From positions 1 to 10,700 of the forward strand of contig JALZWD010000420.1 in the NCBI GenBank assembly GCA_023300365.1: a DNA stretch of 10,700 nucleotides, written 5' to 3'. The notes below the pieces were generated by a model. That model saw only the letters and a program-made list of their open reading frames with translations. It searched no databases and was not told where the DNA came from. Made by a program: the position numbers and the translations under genes. Shown in pieces: positions 1 through 10,700 of the stretch; position 1 is the first letter of the stretch; every line of letters starts with the position of its first letter. Source of the stretch: Flavimaricola sp. (GTDB lineage Bacteria; Pseudomonadota; Alphaproteobacteria; Rhodobacterales; Rhodobacteraceae).

Positions 1-1868
1 GTGTTGCCATCAAGATCAAGCAAAACGTCGCCGTTTACCTCGCTATAAGAAACCTCCGAGCGGGCCATGTTCTTTAGTATTATCCGGTCCAGACCGATCT
101 CAAAGTCGCGCACGACATCGTCGCCAGCACCCGCCGCCCTGAACACAAACGTATCGCGGCCCAAACCACCCAACAGCATGTCATCGCCGCGGCCACCAAC
201 AAGCTTGTCAGCACCAGCACCACCTTGCAGATCATCGTCACCCCGACGTCCCAAAAGACGGTCATTGCCGGTATCCCCAAAGATGAAATCAGCACCATGG
301 TCGCCTCTTAGTAGGTCGCGGCCCTCCGTCCCGATCATACGGTCCTGCGCGGCAAACACATCCACCTGCAAGGCCTCAATGTCGGTGTTGCGAAGGATAA
401 CATCGGAAAGGTTGGTATCCCAAAGGGCCACCACATCCGCATCACTAAAACCATCACGCCCCTCGCTCCACAGCGCATCGCCGTCGCGCAATGCGGTGAA
501 TTGGTCGATCATAATCAACGAAAACAACTCGCCCAAAAGCGCGCCGTCCATGGCATCCTCGGCCAAGCCGCCAACCCATGCATCGATATAATCAACAGTG
601 CCGTACACCGCCTCAAGACGGCCAGCGAGGTCTGTATCGGATGTGACATCGGCAAATGTCGCGGCCCGCTCAAGGCCCACGGCCTCGCGCAGATCATTGT
701 AACTCGCCACACCCAAATCGCGCCCACGCTGAATGTTGAGAGCGGCAAGGTCAAATCCGCCAGCACCCGGTGGGCCAAACAAAAAGCTGCGCACGTCTTC
801 GACAACCATCGTATCAACCGCCTGAGCGGTTTGCGTCGCCGCACCCCGAAACAGATCGCCAATCATATCACCATCCGACAACAACTGTGGCTGAAAGAAT
901 GCGTCCCTAAGCGCAAGGGGATCCGCCTGGTTACCGTTTTCGTCAACCAATTGCAGATTGCTGGACAAAAGCGTGTGGCCAAGCCGGTAAACGGCCGTTG
1001 AAAACTCAACCGAAATGCCGGGATTTACGCTTGCGTCATAGCCGGTGTAGGCGTCGAATTGATCCTCGCCCACAAGGATCGGCAGGAATTCATTAAAGGT
1101 AATGGCCTGCACAATCGCCTCTACTTGGGCGCGGGCTTGGGTATAAAGCGCGTCGCTTGAGAGGCGCGGGTTGTCGTTGGCCAGCTCATCTACGATGCGG
1201 TTGTGTTCGCGGGTAAAGATCGTGTGCATCGACGACAGCGCGACGTTTTCCGCGGCACGCACATCCCCCGTAAGGAGGCTGCCTTCATCGCTTAAGACCA
1301 ATTGATTGTCGGCGGTCATCACAATCTTGCCGCCCTCGCCGCGCAGCGCCTGTGCGGTTGCGGTGTCTGATCCGTAAATCATCGATGCATCGATGAATGC
1401 AGTGATCTCGTTAACATAGGCGCCGTTGTGTTCGTCAACACGTGTGAACGGGATTTCAACGGTTCCGGTGCCAAACGGATCAAAGAATGCGTCGCCCGTT
1501 GGCACAGCGATATTGGCGGTTTCGCCCGTGCCTGCTTCGGTCAGGGAAAGGTCGTGGTCAAGAAACTGCCCCCAAATCCATAGAAAGTCTGACGCACCAG
1601 CCGAATTGACGGTGTCTTCGGTCTGTTGTGCGACGGCATTGGAAACCTCACGTGCATTGGGAAGGTGGTCATCCGCAATATCGCCGTTTTCATCGCGGGC
1701 GTCGGGCGCAAGCCGAAGCAGCTCCGCTTGCGACGCGCCCCAGTTTTGGTTTGCGTCGTTGTTGCCCGTGCCATCAATCGTTCTTGGATCAACAAGGTCA
1801 GGGCCATCGCTGTGGTCGCGACGATCCAAGTCTCGCTTTTGCGGCCCGGTTCTTACTTGGTTTGTCAT
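1..1868 (-). CDS. Secreted animal-type haem peroxidase with RTX repeats (3' end outside window)
   Basis: The reverse frame stays open from the ATG at 1868 to the window edge (about 622 codons), so the gene is cut only by the window. Seen: residues 101-105 Q-F-L-D-H carry the distal His105; R204-A-A-E207 matches the distal Arg/Glu motif of myeloperoxidase-type enzymes; MHTIFTREHNRI lies at 214-225; YRLGHTLL carries the likely proximal His298; LNIQRGRD is at 377-384. Residues 523-576 hold glycine/aspartate nonapeptides, followed by a tail typical of RTX proteins (DTFVF, then a VVRDFEIGLDRI stretch). Known: the peroxidase-cyclooxygenase superfamily oxidises halides or organic substrates with H2O2. 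RTX proteins leave the cell by type I secretion and fold on binding Ca2+. There is no N-terminal signal peptide, which fits that route. The ATG at 1868 is the only in-frame ATG near the start of homology; its Shine-Dalgarno is weak. Only a few tens of residues are probably missing. The substrate cannot be told from sequence. No type I exporter gene is in the window. Confidence 0.93.
   Translation of the reverse strand, partial: MTNQVRTGPQKRDLDRRDHSDGPDLVDPRTIDGTGNNDANQNWGASQAELLRLAPDARDENGDIADDHLPNAREVSNAVAQQTEDTVNSAGASDFLWIWGQFLDHDLSLTEAGTGETANIAVPTGDAFFDPFGTGTVEIPFTRVDEHNGAYVNEITAFIDASMIYGSDTATAQALRGEGGKIVMTADNQLVLSDEGSLLTGDVRAAENVALSSMHTIFTREHNRIVDELANDNPRLSSDALYTQARAQVEAIVQAITFNEFLPILVGEDQFDAYTGYDASVNPGISVEFSTAVYRLGHTLLSSNLQLVDENGNQADPLALRDAFFQPQLLSDGDMIGDLFRGAATQTAQAVDTMVVEDVRSFLFGPPGAGGFDLAALNIQRGRDLGVASYNDLREAVGLERAATFADVTSDTDLAGRLEAVYGTVDYIDAWVGGLAEDAMDGALLGELFSLIMIDQFTALRDGDALWSEGRDGFSDADVVALWDTNLSDVILRNTDIEALQVDVFAAQDRMIGTEGRDLLRGDHGADFIFGDTGNDRLLGRRGDDDLQGGAGADKLVGGRGDDMLLGGLGRDTFVFRAAGAGDDVVRDFEIGLDRIILKNMARSEVSYSEVNGDVLLDLDGN
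141..302 (-). repeat. RTX nonapeptide repeat block of the peroxidase
   Basis: This DNA encodes residues 523-576. Near-repeats of the GGxGxDxUx type are visible: GDTGNDRLL, GRRGDDDLQ, GGAGADKLV, GGRGDDMLL and GGLGRDTFV, with a degenerate HGADFIF unit before them. In known RTX proteins such repeats form a parallel beta-roll that binds Ca2+ outside the cell. The array is short (about five to six units) and is followed by the usual C-terminal secretion-signal region. Confidence 0.88.
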
Positions 1869-2132
1869 ATTTCTTACCCACTGGTTAAACGTTATCACGG
1901 TTTCGTTACCGGATTTGATTTTCGCGGAGTAGGGTGAATTCGTGCAGAAATGGATTGTTTTTAATATTGAAACAGTACGCGGCTCAAAAGTAGGTTTGTT
2001 AAGCACGTTACACACCAAAAAAGCGGTGATTTTGGGCAACACGAACAGGTACCGGCCAGTGCCAAGCCGGGCGAAAATCGCATTTGGCCGCGCCCCTTTC
2101 CTTTCGCCGCATCCCGTGAAACCAATTCGGGC
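1869..2132. other. Divergent intergenic region between peroxidase and MFS genes
   Basis: This 264-base stretch separates two divergent genes and should hold both promoters. It is more AT-rich than its flanks, especially around 1955-1975 and 1995-2040. A GC-rich hairpin (CCGGC at 2052-2056, GCCGG at 2066-2070, 9-base loop) sits in the presumed leader of the transporter gene. I could not assign -35/-10 boxes with confidence. A 64-codon open frame at 1942-2136 has no recognisable protein features and I do not call it. Confidence 0.5.
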
Positions 2133-3353
2133 ATGAATATCTTTCGCTTTGTCTCTGAAAACCGGGCGTTTCTCGCGGCGGGGTTTTTGTTGGCCTTTAC
2201 CTCGTCATACGGACAGACCTATTTCATCTCGCTTTTCGCGGGCGAAATCATGATGACGTTTGCCCTAAGTGATGGGCAATGGGGCGCGATTTACACCGTC
2301 GGCACAACGCTGTCGGCACTGGTGATGCTTGGGGTCGGCGGCCTGACGGATCGGTTTCGCGTGCGCGCGATTGCGCCTGTGGTGATTGGTGGGCTGGCTG
2401 TGTCGTGTTTGGCAATGGCCGCCCTGCCCGGCCCTGCGCTGCTTGTTGGTGTGGTCTTTGCGTTGCGGTTCTTTGGCCAAGGCATGCTAAGCCACCTTGC
2501 GGTGGTGGCGATGGCGCGGTGGTTTGTGGCCACGCGCGGCACGGCCTTGTCGGTGTCGGCAATGGGCTACGGCGTGGGCCAAGCGGTTTTGCCTTTGGTT
2601 TTTGTGGGCCTTATCGGCGTGGTTTATTGGCAATGGTTGTGGGTGTTGGCCGCACTCTTGGTATTGGCGACACTGCCGTTTGTGGCCATGCTTTTGCGGC
2701 TTGAGCGCACACCCCAAAGCATGGCCGAGGACGCACAGGCCGCCGGGATGCACGGGCGGCATTGGACGCGCGGGGAAATGCTGCGGCATCCGTTGTTTTG
2801 GTTCATGGTGCCGCTCTTGTTTGGACCACCTGCATGGGGGACGGCCCTGTTTTTTCAGCAGGTGCATTTAACGGATGTTAAGGGGTGGGACTTGGCGGCC
2901 TATGTGGCGCTTAATCCGGTATTGGTGGTCATGGCAACGATGGCGACATTCGCCAGCGGGTGGGCGATCGATCGTTGGGGCACGGGACGGATTATTCCGT
3001 TTTATCTGTTGCCCTATGCCGCGGCATTCACGGTAATGGCCGGGGCCGAGACCCTATGGGGCGGGGCGCTTGCCTTGATGATCTTTGGGCTTGGCGCAGG
3101 CATGCAAGCCACCGTGCCGGGCGCGTTTTGGGCGGAATATTACGGCACGCGGCATGTGGGCGCGATCAAGGCGGCGTCGGTGGCGATCATGGTCTTTGGA
3201 TCGGCGGTTGGGCCGGGTGTGACGGGATGGTTGATCGACCGGGGCTTGGATTTCCCCGATCAGATGGGGATGATTGTGGTGTATTATCTGATGGCCGCCG
3301 TGTGTGCGGGTGTCGGGATATGGCGGGCCGGGCCGCTAGCGCGTGCGGCGTAG
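2133..3353 (+). CDS. Major facilitator superfamily (MFS) transporter
   Basis: A 406-residue, very hydrophobic protein with roughly a dozen predicted membrane segments, the normal size for an MFS carrier. MFS motif A is seen in the loop after helix 2 (GGLTDRF, residues 69-75), and its half-repeat partner in the second domain (GWAIDRWGTGRI, about 276-287). A charged linker at about 190-220 separates the two six-helix halves. The stretch FWAEYYGTRHVGAIKA (332-347) resembles the monocarboxylate/oxalate-formate type subgroup, so a small organic anion is a possible substrate; this is inference. The ATG at 2133 begins the family-like N-terminus, although no strong Shine-Dalgarno is present. Its last 18 bases overlap the 3' end of the convergent smr gene. 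The neighbouring peroxidase gene is divergent, so the two could share regulation, but nothing shows a functional link. Confidence 0.88.
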   Translation: MNIFRFVSENRAFLAAGFLLAFTSSYGQTYFISLFAGEIMMTFALSDGQWGAIYTVGTTLSALVMLGVGGLTDRFRVRAIAPVVIGGLAVSCLAMAALPGPALLVGVVFALRFFGQGMLSHLAVVAMARWFVATRGTALSVSAMGYGVGQAVLPLVFVGLIGVVYWQWLWVLAALLVLATLPFVAMLLRLERTPQSMAEDAQAAGMHGRHWTRGEMLRHPLFWFMVPLLFGPPAWGTALFFQQVHLTDVKGWDLAAYVALNPVLVVMATMATFASGWAIDRWGTGRIIPFYLLPYAAAFTVMAGAETLWGGALALMIFGLGAGMQATVPGAFWAEYYGTRHVGAIKAASVAIMVFGSAVGPGVTGWLIDRGLDFPDQMGMIVVYYLMAAVCAGVGIWRAGPLARAA

Positions 3354-7117: not shown

Positions 7118-7687
7118 ATGACCAGATCCCTTTACGCCTTCGCCTTTGCTGGCATTTTCATCATCGGCCTAACGCTCTGGGCGTGGGGCCAGCCGCTCAT
7201 TTGTACCTGCGGCGAAGTTCGCTTTTGGGTTGGGTCGATCTTTGATAGCGGCAATTCCCAACATATCGCGGACTGGTACACCCTCAGCCACATCCTGCAC
7301 GGAGTGCTTGTCGCGATGGTTGGGCGTCTGGTGTTTCCGCGTGTTGGATTTAATGTGCTGTTTGCTATCGCGATCACATCAGGAATTTTCTGGGAGGTGA
7401 TCGAGCACACCAACTGGGTGCTCGATGCCTTTCGCGCGACGACGGTGAACCAAGGCTATACTGGCGACAGCGTTCTTAACGCGGTGGCCGATTACGTCTG
7501 GATGCTCGGTGGGTTTTTTGCGGCCTATGCGATGCGAATTGGTTGGGTCATCGTGTCGGTTCTGACGCTTGAGCTCACCGCCGCATTGGTCGGGCGCGAT
7601 AGCCTAGCACTGAGCACCTTGATGTTGGTCTATCCAATTGAGGCCGTGGGTGCGTGGCAACAAGAGATCAATCCCAACGCGGGCTAA
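7118..7687 (+). CDS. DUF2585 (UPF0314) integral membrane protein
   Basis: A 189-residue membrane protein of unknown function with about five hydrophobic segments. It matches the DUF2585/UPF0314 family as I remember it: a first helix followed by GQPLICTCGEV (24-34), NSQHIADWYTLSHILHG (46-62), FWEVIEHTNW (91-100), GYTGDSVLNAVADY (113-126) and RDSLALSTLMLVYPIEA (160-176). The conserved Cys, His, Glu and Asp clustered at membrane edges hint at a metal site or enzymatic role, which is inference. Start: the ATG at 7118 gives a family-like N-terminus; an in-frame TTG at 7103 would add five residues; neither has a clear Shine-Dalgarno. A secB terminator lies upstream, so it probably has its own promoter in 6986-7117, where I could not identify one with confidence. 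Its stop overlaps the stop of the convergent dnaQ by four bases. Confidence 0.88.
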   Translation: MTRSLYAFAFAGIFIIGLTLWAWGQPLICTCGEVRFWVGSIFDSGNSQHIADWYTLSHILHGVLVAMVGRLVFPRVGFNVLFAIAITSGIFWEVIEHTNWVLDAFRATTVNQGYTGDSVLNAVADYVWMLGGFFAAYAMRIGWVIVSVLTLELTAALVGRDSLALSTLMLVYPIEAVGAWQQEINPNAG

Positions 7688-8376
7688 AGCTTTTTCCACA
7701 AGGGATCATCCCCCAGCGTATCGATAAACGCCGCATGCGCCGCTTGTTCTTGCGGCGTCACACGGGGCGGCAAAGCCACATCACGCGGACGGGCGCGCCA
7801 TTCGCCGCCGTCACCGTCGCCTGCGGATTTTTTCGGACCGTCATTGGCCAAAACAAGATCCGGTTGGCGGCCACCAATCAGCTCAAGATACACCTCGGCC
7901 AGAATTTCACTATCAAGCAGCGCGCCGTGCAATGTGCGCGAGGAATTGTCGATGCCAAAACGGCGACACAGCGCATCCAAAGACGCAGGCGATCCAGGAA
8001 AGCGTTTGCGGGCGATGGCAAGGGTATCAAGCGCCTGATCCATCGGCAAAAGCGGGCGATTAACCCAACCCAGCTCGGCATTAAGGAACTTCATGTCAAA
8101 GGCGGCGTTGTGGATCACCAGCTTGGCATCACCAACAAAATCAACAAACGCTTGAGCAATATCTTTGAACAACGGTTTGTCGCGCAGAAAATCATCCCCA
8201 AGCCCATGCACTTCAAACGCGCCTTGGGGCATTGCACGTTGGGGGTTGATGTATTGATGATAGGTACGCCCGGTTGGCACATGGCCAATCAACTCAACCG
8301 CACCGATCTCAACGATCCGGTCGCCCTCTTCGGGCTCAAACCCGGTGGTTTCTGTATCAAGAACGATTTCACGCAT
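7684..8376 (-). CDS. dnaQ: DNA polymerase III epsilon subunit (3'-5' proofreading exonuclease)
   Basis: A 230-residue DEDDh exonuclease of the usual length for replicative epsilon. Catalytic residues are visible: Asp7 and Glu9 in LDTETTG (Exo I), Asp94 in HNAAFDMKFL (Exo II), His150 and Asp155 in HGALLDSEIL (Exo III). A flexible Gly/Asp-rich linker at about 180-195 leads to the C-terminal tail ending HAAFIDTLGDDPLWKKL, the region that binds the polymerase alpha subunit. It removes misincorporated bases during replication. It is the last gene of the maf-aroE-coaE-dnaQ operon; its start lies inside the end of coaE (8-base overlap), which suggests translational coupling, as its own Shine-Dalgarno is weak. 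The 3' end overlaps the DUF2585 gene by four bases with no terminator seen. Confidence 0.97.
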   Translation of the reverse strand: MREIVLDTETTGFEPEEGDRIVEIGAVELIGHVPTGRTYHQYINPQRAMPQGAFEVHGLGDDFLRDKPLFKDIAQAFVDFVGDAKLVIHNAAFDMKFLNAELGWVNRPLLPMDQALDTLAIARKRFPGSPASLDALCRRFGIDNSSRTLHGALLDSEILAEVYLELIGGRQPDLVLANDGPKKSAGDGDGGEWRARPRDVALPPRVTPQEQAAHAAFIDTLGDDPLWKKL

Positions 8377-8962
8377 CAGACAGGCTTTCGCGAATTTCGG
8401 TAAGGATGTGATGCACCTGTTCGCGGGCGTGGTCCAGTGTATCGGTCACGATAAGGTAATCGGCGCGCGCGCGTTTGTCGGCATCGGGGGTTTGCCGCTC
8501 AAGGATCACCTCAAAATCCGCCACACTCATTTCCCCACGATCCAAAACCCGTTGCCGTTGCGTGGCGGCATCGACACTGACCACGGCGATCGCATCACAT
8601 TGCGCCTCGGCGCCGGTTTCAAACAACAGCGGGATATCAAGGATGACGATTTGGCCCGCGTTATCCGCGACAAACTTTTGACGGTCGGCCGCGACAAGTG
8701 GGTGAACCATGCTTTGGATGCGGTCAAGAACGCTGGGGTCTTGGCGGATCAGGGCGCGAAGCTTGTCGCGCGAAACCGCGTTGTCCTCGATGGCTTGTGG
8801 GAAATGTTCGGCGATGGCCGCCACCGCCCCACCACCGGAGCCATAAAGCCGGTGCACAACCGCGTCGGCATCCCAAACCGGACATCCGGCATCCGCAAAC
8901 ATTTGGGCGGTGGTGGATTTTCCCATGCCAATAGAACCAGTAAGCCCAAGGCGGAATGTCAT
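8369..8962 (-). CDS. coaE: Dephospho-CoA kinase
   Basis: A 197-residue P-loop kinase that makes the last step of CoA synthesis, phosphorylating the 3'-hydroxyl of dephospho-CoA with ATP. Seen: Walker A GSIGMGKST (9-17), the DADAVVHRLY substrate-side motif (31-40), HP at 87-88, DIPLLFE (109-115), and the lid/adenine region RQTPDADKRARADYLI (156-171). Length is normal. The ATG at 8962 overlaps the aroE stop as ATGA (8959-8962), and its own end overlaps dnaQ by eight bases, so it is embedded in a coupled operon. Nothing unusual is seen in the catalytic residues. Confidence 0.97.
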   Translation of the reverse strand: MTFRLGLTGSIGMGKSTTAQMFADAGCPVWDADAVVHRLYGSGGGAVAAIAEHFPQAIEDNAVSRDKLRALIRQDPSVLDRIQSMVHPLVAADRQKFVADNAGQIVILDIPLLFETGAEAQCDAIAVVSVDAATQRQRVLDRGEMSVADFEVILERQTPDADKRARADYLIVTDTLDHAREQVHHILTEIRESLSDA

Positions 8963-9792
8963 CCCAAAATCGCCGCGCGGGTCTCATCGTCAACATCGGG
9001 GCGCTTGCCAAACCAACGCTCAAAACACGGCACCGCTTGATGCAAAAGCATACCAAGCCCATCAACGGTAATACAGCCCGCGGCATCGGCCTGTTGCAAC
9101 AGCGTGGTGCGCAACGGTGTATAGACAAGATCAGTAACAACCGTACCACGCCGCAATCCATCCAGCGGCACGCGGAATTCGGCGGCACCCGTCATCCCAA
9201 GCGAGGTTGTGTTAATCACCGTGGCCGCATCCTCAAGAACATTGCCCGCCTGAACCCAATCGACAACGCGGACCTTTGATCCAAACTCGGTCTTGAGGGC
9301 CTCGGCCTTGGGGCGGGTACGGTTAGACAAAAGAACCTCGGTGGCGCCCGCCTCGATCAAGGATGAAATCACCGCGCGCGCGGCACCACCCGCACCAAGC
9401 ACGGCACACGGGCCATTCGAGGCCTGCCAACCGGGAGCAGATTGCCGCAAACTCGCGGTAAACCCATAGCCATCGGTGTTGTCGGCATAGACAGAGCCGT
9501 CATCACGAAAAATCAACGTATTGGCGGCCCCAATCAAAATGGCCCGGTCGCTTACTTGATCGGCAAGCTCAATCGCCGCGACCTTGTGCGGGATTGTCAC
9601 ATTGGCCCCCACAAACCCCATCTTGGGCAAGGTCTTGACCACCTGCGCCAAATTCGCGTCCGTGACATGCAACGGCACATAGTCCCCGCGCAAACCGTAA
9701 CGGCGCAACCAATACCGGTGCAAACGAGGCGATTTTGAATGCACAACAGAGGTGCCAATAACGCCAGCAAGGGGGATATAGTCCATACTCAT
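8959..9792 (-). CDS. aroE: Shikimate dehydrogenase (NADP+)
   Basis: A 277-residue enzyme that reduces 3-dehydroshikimate to shikimate in aromatic amino acid synthesis. The N-terminal substrate domain shows HSKSP (18-22), NVTIPHK with the catalytic Lys70 (64-70), and NTDGYGF with Asp107 (105-111). The NADP-binding domain shows the glycine loop GAGGAARA (133-140) and SNRTR (156-160), whose arginine is typical for NADP phosphate binding. A NTTSLGM motif and VTDLVYTPLRT follow, then GLGMLLHQA near the C-terminus. Start: the ATG at 9792 overlaps the maf stop as ATGA (9789-9792); another ATG two codons later is possible but breaks that pattern. Second gene of the operon. Confidence 0.97.
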   Translation of the reverse strand: MSMDYIPLAGVIGTSVVHSKSPRLHRYWLRRYGLRGDYVPLHVTDANLAQVVKTLPKMGFVGANVTIPHKVAAIELADQVSDRAILIGAANTLIFRDDGSVYADNTDGYGFTASLRQSAPGWQASNGPCAVLGAGGAARAVISSLIEAGATEVLLSNRTRPKAEALKTEFGSKVRVVDWVQAGNVLEDAATVINTTSLGMTGAAEFRVPLDGLRRGTVVTDLVYTPLRTTLLQQADAAGCITVDGLGMLLHQAVPCFERWFGKRPDVDDETRAAILG

Positions 9793-10388
9793 AACGCCAG
9801 TGTCCCGCGCTGGGCGAGATATGACAAGAGGGGGACAAGCGGCATCCCTTGGATTGTGAAATGATCCCCGATGATTTGCGCAAACAGACGCACGCCCTCT
9901 TCCTCTATTTTATAACCACCGACAGAATATTGGATCGAACCCCAATTGCGGGCCACATAGTCGGCGATGAAATCCGAGCTGAGGCTATGCATAACAAGAG
10001 TGGCGGTGCTGAGGTGGCGCCAGATTGGGCGCCCCTCAAGGGAAATAACCGCCGCAGAATGGAGTTTGTGAGGGCCACCGGACAATGCGGCAAGCTGATC
10101 TTCGGCCTCTTGGGGAGATTTGGGCTTACTTAGAAGGGTGCCGTTATGATCCAAAACCTGATCGGACCCGATAACAAGGGCCTCAGGGTCACGCATGCTT
10201 ATCTTAAGGGACTTAAGCTCAGCGAGCTTATCGGCGACATCACGCGCCGGGGCGCCCTCGGCCAAAAGCCCCTGTTTGATCATATCTTCGTCGATCCTCG
10301 CAGGCGTTGTGGTATGATCAACGCAGGCATTTTGCAGCATCTGAGACCTTATCTGTGAGGTTGAGGCAAGAATCACTTGGCCGGACAT
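9789..10388 (-). CDS. maf: Maf-family nucleoside triphosphate pyrophosphatase
   Basis: A 199-residue Maf protein, which hydrolyses non-canonical or modified NTPs to monophosphates and so cleans the nucleotide pool. Seen: the N-terminal substrate loop LASTSQIR (7-14), IGSDQVL with catalytic Asp76 (73-79), SKPKSPQEA (87-95), the GGYKIEEEG stretch (157-165), and IIGDHFTIQGMPLVPLL near the C-terminus. Sequence style is closer to the YceF-type (7-methyl-GTP) subgroup than to the YhdE dTTP/UTP type, by eye only. The ATG at 10388 has an AAAGG Shine-Dalgarno nine bases upstream (10398-10402, minus strand). It is the first gene of the maf-aroE-coaE-dnaQ operon, transcribed away from the origin-like region; a DnaA-like box overlaps its start codon. 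Confidence 0.95.
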   Translation of the reverse strand: MSGQVILASTSQIRSQMLQNACVDHTTTPARIDEDMIKQGLLAEGAPARDVADKLAELKSLKISMRDPEALVIGSDQVLDHNGTLLSKPKSPQEAEDQLAALSGGPHKLHSAAVISLEGRPIWRHLSTATLVMHSLSSDFIADYVARNWGSIQYSVGGYKIEEEGVRLFAQIIGDHFTIQGMPLVPLLSYLAQRGTLAL

Positions 10389-10396
10389 GTGGACAA
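10388..10396 (-). promoter_or_regulatory. DnaA-like box overlapping the maf start codon
   Basis: On the minus strand TTGTCCACA differs from the TTATNCACA consensus at one position (G for A at position 3). Its last base is the A of the maf ATG. If real, it could take part in origin function or let DnaA affect expression of the maf operon. Confidence 0.45.
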
Positions 10397-10450
10397 ACCT
10401 TTGGGTAACTGAGGGTACATTCGGCAGGATAGTTTTGTGGGCATTTTTAA

Positions 10451-10468
10451 TTCACCAAGATCGGTGAA
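10451..10468. repeat. Inverted repeat TTCACC-N6-GGTGAA
   Basis: Perfect 6-base half-sites at 10451-10456 and 10463-10468 around AAGATC, about 65 bases upstream of the maf start. It looks like a dimeric protein-binding site, either for maf-operon control or as part of the origin; the binding factor is unknown. Confidence 0.4.
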
Positions 10469-10502
10469 CAACCCAATAATACTTTGGTCGGTTCTGCACA
10501 TG

Positions 10503-10525
10503 TTATCCCTTGGGGAGAAGGATAA
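10503..10525. repeat. Inverted pair of TTATCC cores
   Basis: TTATCC (10503-10508) and GGATAA (10520-10525) form a perfect inverted repeat around an 11-base purine-rich spacer. TTATCC is the first part of the DnaA box TTATCCACA, but both copies diverge in the last three bases, so they would be weak DnaA sites at best. Confidence 0.4.
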
Positions 10526-10538
10526 AACCGCGCTGTGG

Positions 10539-10551
10539 ACGACTCTGTCGT
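10539..10551. repeat. Small hairpin containing a GANTC site
   Basis: ACGAC (10539-10543) and GTCGT (10547-10551) pair around a 3-base loop. The element contains GACTC (10541-10545), a GANTC site that CcrM methylates in alphaproteobacteria, and overlaps a two-mismatch DnaA-like site (10534-10542, minus strand). Confidence 0.35.
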
Positions 10552-10597
10552 ACAAAGACCTGTCAATGTTTGTTTTTCCGAAATGTGGCAAGATTGT

Positions 10598-10640
10598 GGT
10601 TTTTTTTTGGAAATAAAAACAACGCGTTGGTAAAAAAACC
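10598..10640. repeat. T-tract/A-tract inverted repeat in the AT-rich segment
   Basis: GGTTTTTTT (10598-10606) pairs perfectly with AAAAAAACC (10632-10640) across 25 bases. The interior includes a run of As and the 10-base palindrome CAACGCGTTG (10620-10629). It ends three bases before the perfect DnaA box at 10644. Such an AT-rich stretch beside a DnaA box is what a DNA-unwinding element looks like. Confidence 0.45.
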
Positions 10641-10643
10641 GAG

Positions 10644-10652
10644 TTATACACA
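10644..10652 (+). promoter_or_regulatory. Perfect DnaA box (TTATACACA)
   Basis: Exact match to the TTATNCACA consensus. I did not notice another exact match in this window, though the search was by eye. It flanks the AT-rich segment 10561-10640. Confidence 0.6.
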
Positions 10653-10700
10653 CACCCTTAGAGGCTGGTTTCTTCAGAGGATAAGTCTGCGGAGAAGTCG

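Follow-up and report, generated by a model that had tools for sequence, protein, structure and literature searches.

Gene order at the right end of the contig

The window, meaning the whole stretch of 10,700 bp that was analysed, is an entire contig (C420) of a parent genome assembled in 444 contigs (2.19 Mb, 66% complete); the closest named matches of this genome point to Rhodobacteraceae. The right end of the window is occupied by an intergenic gap of 312 bp, the right-hand neighbour of which lies beyond the contig end. On the left, the gap is bordered by a leftward run of genes led by maf, followed further left by secB, fxsA, a Tim44-domain protein and mltA; the Pfam assignments confirmed the maf, aroE, coaE, dnaQ-type exonuclease and secB neighbourhood described in the original prediction, which had proposed the gap upstream of maf as a candidate oriC.

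10389..10700, no strand: candidate chromosomal oriC, intergenic; the contig ends inside the gap or near its end
9789..10388, minus strand: maf (PF02545), leading the leftward run maf-aroE-coaE-dnaQ
8959..9792, minus strand: aroE (PF08501, PF18317)
8369..8962, minus strand: coaE (PF01121)
7684..8376, minus strand: dnaQ-type exonuclease (PF00929)

Two mechanical ORFs of 92 and 83 amino acids, the latter open-ended, overlap the gap. No RNA family was matched in 10300-10700 up to an E value of 1, and the promoter scan of the gap returned 1 site for 0.5 expected, promoters and terminators being not above chance. Consensus sites for CtrA and IHF are absent from the window gap. In the organism's own 66% complete assembly, the search for hemJ, run without a positive control, gave no match, and that for rho found no orthologue, with three weak matches of 26-28% identity. 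Since the window is a complete contig of a fragmentary genome, the question of oriC was decided through relatives. At the opposite end of the window, a long ORF (3-2042, minus strand) runs off the contig; by eye it is heme peroxidase-like, with terminal glycine-aspartate-rich repeats.

DnaA boxes and AT-rich block in the window

The gap was scanned for DnaA boxes with the consensus TTWTNCACA, and registers are given as positions relative to maf.

10388..10396, minus strand: DnaA box TTGTCCACA, 1 mismatch, register -8, overlapping the maf start codon
10400..10408, minus strand: degenerate DnaA box TTACCCAAA, 2 mismatches, register -20
10436..10444, minus strand: very degenerate DnaA box ATGCCCACA, 3 mismatches, register -56
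10492..10500, plus strand: DnaA box TTCTGCACA, 1 mismatch
10503..10511, plus strand: very degenerate DnaA box TTATCCCTT, 3 mismatches, register -122
10534..10542, minus strand: degenerate DnaA box TCGTCCACA, 2 mismatches, register -154
10644..10652, plus strand: perfect DnaA box TTATACACA, bordering the AT-rich block
10676..10684, minus strand: degenerate DnaA box TTATCCTCT, 2 mismatches, register -295
10493..10556, minus strand: 64-bp conserved core (profile match) with the -154 box and a TTATCC...GGATAA pair
10599..10648, no strand: AT-rich block with A/T-tracts (72% AT), candidate DNA unwinding element

The perfect box abuts the AT-rich block, as had been claimed from the letters, and the partial boxes and short inverted repeats (e.g. 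10596-10608/10611-10623) were likewise recovered. The number of boxes was compared with chance by shuffling 2000 times the 312 bp gap together with 12 nt of maf. One perfect box was found for 0.08 expected (P 0.077), which alone is not significant, and three boxes with at most one mismatch for 1.15 expected (P 0.10). These two values are what speaks for the boxes and A-tracts having arisen by chance in an AT-rich gap; against this, 21 boxes with at most two mismatches were counted for 8.7 expected (P 0.0005), and the register agreement with relatives reported below was scored without the window. We consider a chance origin extremely improbable. The perfect box by itself is weak evidence; the box array is not. 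The majority of the window boxes at the family register places carry 2 or 3 mismatches, and the whole window exhibited no enrichment of boxes at one mismatch or fewer (10 found for 14.5 expected).

In a nearest-neighbour stacking calculation, which is not a melting assay, no other 50-bp segment of the contig is as unstable as 10599-10648, by a slim difference (-1.222 versus -1.226 and -1.227 elsewhere), and the 80-bp and 100-bp stability minima of the contig also fall in the region of this block. Across 51 hemJ-flanked gaps of relatives, average AT content peaked at 77% and 70% in the pair of bins that cover 211-240 bp upstream of maf, all other bins staying below 60%; the AT block of the window overlaps the place of this peak. 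In 51/77 relatives, the sequence most similar to the 64-bp core was located 164-169 bp upstream of maf, and the core was the top match in the sampled DNA of three genomes (G005, G015 and G011) and not above background in G036, with a profile trained on the gaps of the same relatives and on the window.

The gap upstream of maf in relatives

The maf gene was sought in 61 genomes including the organism's own (57 matched) and in a named genome collection (56 loci). L001 and L002, which are the window itself, and L031, from another family, were left out of the counts, and L030 and L087 were dropped for want of a usable maf start, leaving 82 relatives. With gap lengths estimated from tblastn ends, hemJ (UPF0093) is divergent from maf in 51 of these at 249-375 bp (49/51 at 295-350) and rho in 25 at 429-550 bp, with neither gene found within 560 bp of maf in the remaining 6. 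Beyond the gap, Pfam assigned mnmE, mnmG, rsmG, parA and parB in L046. The original prediction had named hemE, rho, mnmE/mnmG or parAB as the genes to look for on this side: hemJ or rho is found there in relatives, and mnmE, mnmG, parA and parB follow in L046, while hemE was not among the genes identified between parB and maf at this one locus. The rho-hemJ-maf-aroE arrangement of Rhodobacteraceae was also seen on a contig labelled as a Planctomycetota MAG (L033), which, judging by this arrangement, is probably misbinned.

Register counts were made on the 76 relatives with hemJ or rho within 560 bp (L003, L024, L028, L029, L073 and L086 were not kept). These 76 include some genomes twice; 72 remain after removal of near-identical gaps, a set used for the start-codon box count, and the register, core and CtrA-site counts use all 76 or 77, duplicates included. 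The preferred registers, picked by inspecting the same relatives, lie at about -320, -295, -283, -190, -154, -122, -56, -20 and -8 from maf, and each is occupied by just 9 to 42 of the 76 relatives when up to one mismatch and a shift of up to 6 bp are allowed. At the maf start codon, the -8 box has at most one mismatch in 35 of the 72 non-redundant relatives, 17 of them perfect. With the window excluded from training, its register score was 17.3; none of 500 control segments drawn from this contig, mostly coding and of higher G+C, exceeded -16.3, and none of 62 slid registers exceeded -4.9. The -320 register, before which the contig ends, was omitted from this scoring. A second scoring retaining all nine registers gave 11.5 for the window, a value reached by none of 1000 composition-preserving shuffles (mean -49.3). 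In the gap of the same-genus relative G001 (L005), just 2 boxes depart from the consensus by no more than one base, similar to the degenerate set of the window.

Among the 47 of 56 named loci with a length of at least 15 kb, boxes with at most one mismatch reached a density of 12.9 per kb immediately upstream of maf (326 bp) versus 1.01 per kb in the remainder of the loci. In 40 of these loci the gap alone ranked first among 400-bp box clusters; it shared first place in 1 and was outranked in 6, among them L086, labelled Azospirillaceae. On a larger scale, the maf gap ranked first among the box clusters of G005 and G036 (160 kb scanned in each) and of G011 (240 kb), and in G015 it came third by box score, after a cluster inside the secB coding sequence (L200, C1 around 1178051) and another at 1148751. 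The 600 bp preceding maf contain no box in L029 and L028 and a single one in each of L024 and L086.

In L024 and L028, another gene occupies the region directly upstream of maf. This is a COG1806-type (Kinase-PPPase) gene, at 590-1495 (plus strand, PF03618) in L024 and at 2084-2983 (minus strand, judged from its translation) in L028, and the boxes and the AT peak are found in the gap between hemJ and this gene. In Caulobacter, maf-aroE presumably follow COG1806, and the presence of the COG1806-type gene before maf is probably an ancestral state shared with Caulobacter. Together with the COG1806 gene that flanks the Caulobacter oriC, L024 and L028 suggest that the clade of the window lost this gene, the origin now touching maf.

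On the hemJ/rho side of maf, at a distance of 3.1-6.4 kb, 48/56 named loci have at least two parS-like sites (within two mismatches), 2/56 have a single site and 6/56 none; five of these last six loci extend only a short way in this direction, and the sixth is L086. Four genomes (G005, G015, G036 and G011) also have such pairs of parS close to maf, and sampling of five genomes at even spacing (100 samples of 20 kb) gave no pair. The window, which lies nearly whole on the side of the gap opposite hemJ/rho, showed no parS within 3 mismatches.

GC skew was read in five sampled relatives, and overall two agree with an origin at maf, one is offset by 108-168 kb and two are unhelpful; for G036, G011 and G035 it was read on the maf-bearing contig of multi-contig, possibly unclosed assemblies. 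When a half-and-half skew step was fitted, placing its origin at maf was among the equally best solutions in three genomes: G005 (range of ties 3.40-3.54 Mb and 0, maf at 3.478), G015 (1.10-1.30 Mb, maf at 1.181) and G011 (2.88-3.02 Mb, maf at 2.913). The best step lies elsewhere in G036 and G035, where maf ranks 48/190 and 42/208, respectively. The distance between maf and the local cumulative minimum was 1.9 kb for G005, 17.9 kb for G015 and 79 kb for G036, where the minimum stood at the distal limit of the stretch that was read. Samples of G005 at 0.01-0.37 Mb, just past maf, still exhibited a slightly negative skew. The fine minimum of G011 lies 168 kb from maf, with a near-equal dip at 108 kb. 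This offset of the skew minimum from the maf box cluster (C3 2.74-2.91 Mb, L255-L269) possibly results from a rearrangement near the origin.

A probable chromosomal origin adjoining maf

We conclude, with a probability of about 0.92, that 10389-10700 is the chromosomal oriC of this Rhodobacteraceae species, an ordinary one placed like the known origins of the family. This assignment is based on the box array, its register agreement with relatives, the AT block, the gene context with the parS sites of relatives and the skew in some relatives, and it bears out the central claim of the original prediction, with the divergent flanks of the gap adding to its support. Boxes of mostly low affinity, arrayed on either side of the AT-rich block 10599-10648, would be occupied by DnaA, which would melt this block and allow the helicase to be loaded. 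The leftward fork would then run through maf-aroE-coaE-dnaQ, and the rightward fork would pass the presumed neighbour of the gap, hemJ or rho, towards parS and parAB.

The gap might instead be a divergent promoter region (maf against hemJ or rho), regulated by DnaA or carrying spare DnaA sites, with the origin elsewhere nearby. In favour of this, a promoter is expected there, since the gap of relatives lies between divergent genes, and the resolution of the skew is some kb at best. The promoter scan (see above) is neutral towards this reading. The conserved AT block flanked by boxes on each side, the first place of the gap among box clusters over 160-240 kb in three relatives and the parS sites nearby argue against it, and we regard it as improbable. 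DnaA-like plasmids occur in Rhodobacterales, which could make the gap the origin of such a plasmid; the flanking genes are housekeeping genes whose order is kept across the family, and a plasmid origin appears extremely unlikely.

An oriC adjoining maf is stated to be conserved in Rhodobacteraceae, with citation of DoriC, in the report on Ketogulonicigenium vulgare (PMC4793288). A maf-adjacent oriC is therefore already known for the family, and the window adds a further member of this kind. Its gap is like the K. vulgare oriC in position, immediately upstream of maf, and differs in belonging to another species and in its degenerate boxes. PMC6699656 used Ori-Finder to assign oriC in 101 Rhodobacteraceae strains, relying on the minimum of the skew, a local low in GC and the proximity of parAB. 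The portions of PMC6699656, PMC6315104, PMC4793288, PMC1914354, PMC6650430 and PMC7901474 covered by our literature search contain Ori-Finder predictions and imaging, and no marker-frequency map of a Rhodobacteraceae chromosome was found in them.

The oriC of Caulobacter crescentus, according to PMC1914354, consists of 404 bp between hemE and COG1806, and a table of that paper gives it as AT-richer than the genome (43.6% versus 32.8%). The window resembles it by a gap of similar size, AT-rich and with DnaA boxes, and relatives L024 and L028 resemble it by the COG1806-type gene kept near the gap. In contrast to Caulobacter, hemJ or rho, not hemE, stands on the other side of the gap in relatives. 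There is no support here for CtrA control as in Caulobacter: the TTAA-N7-TTAA site occurs nowhere in the window gap and in only 5/77 gaps, the window included. For Hyphomonas neptunium, PMC6650430 describes, by marker frequency, an ori region with parAB and parS a few kb off and with hemE as landmark. In relatives of the window, parAB and parS likewise lie within a few kb of the proposed origin; here the origin is deduced, unlike the marker-frequency assignment and the hemE landmark described there.

The box at the start codon of maf might let DnaA gate the maf-aroE-coaE-dnaQ run, so that the proofreading subunit and nucleotide clean-up would be timed with initiation, an idea that we hold to be rather unlikely. 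If true, the oriC of Rhodobacteraceae would extend into a coding start. Through this box, a modest link of initiation to dnaQ expression could be tested. Knowing the likely origin gives a fragmentary genome of the Rhodobacteraceae its orientation and map zero, and the family-wide box register may aid the recognition of oriC on short contigs.
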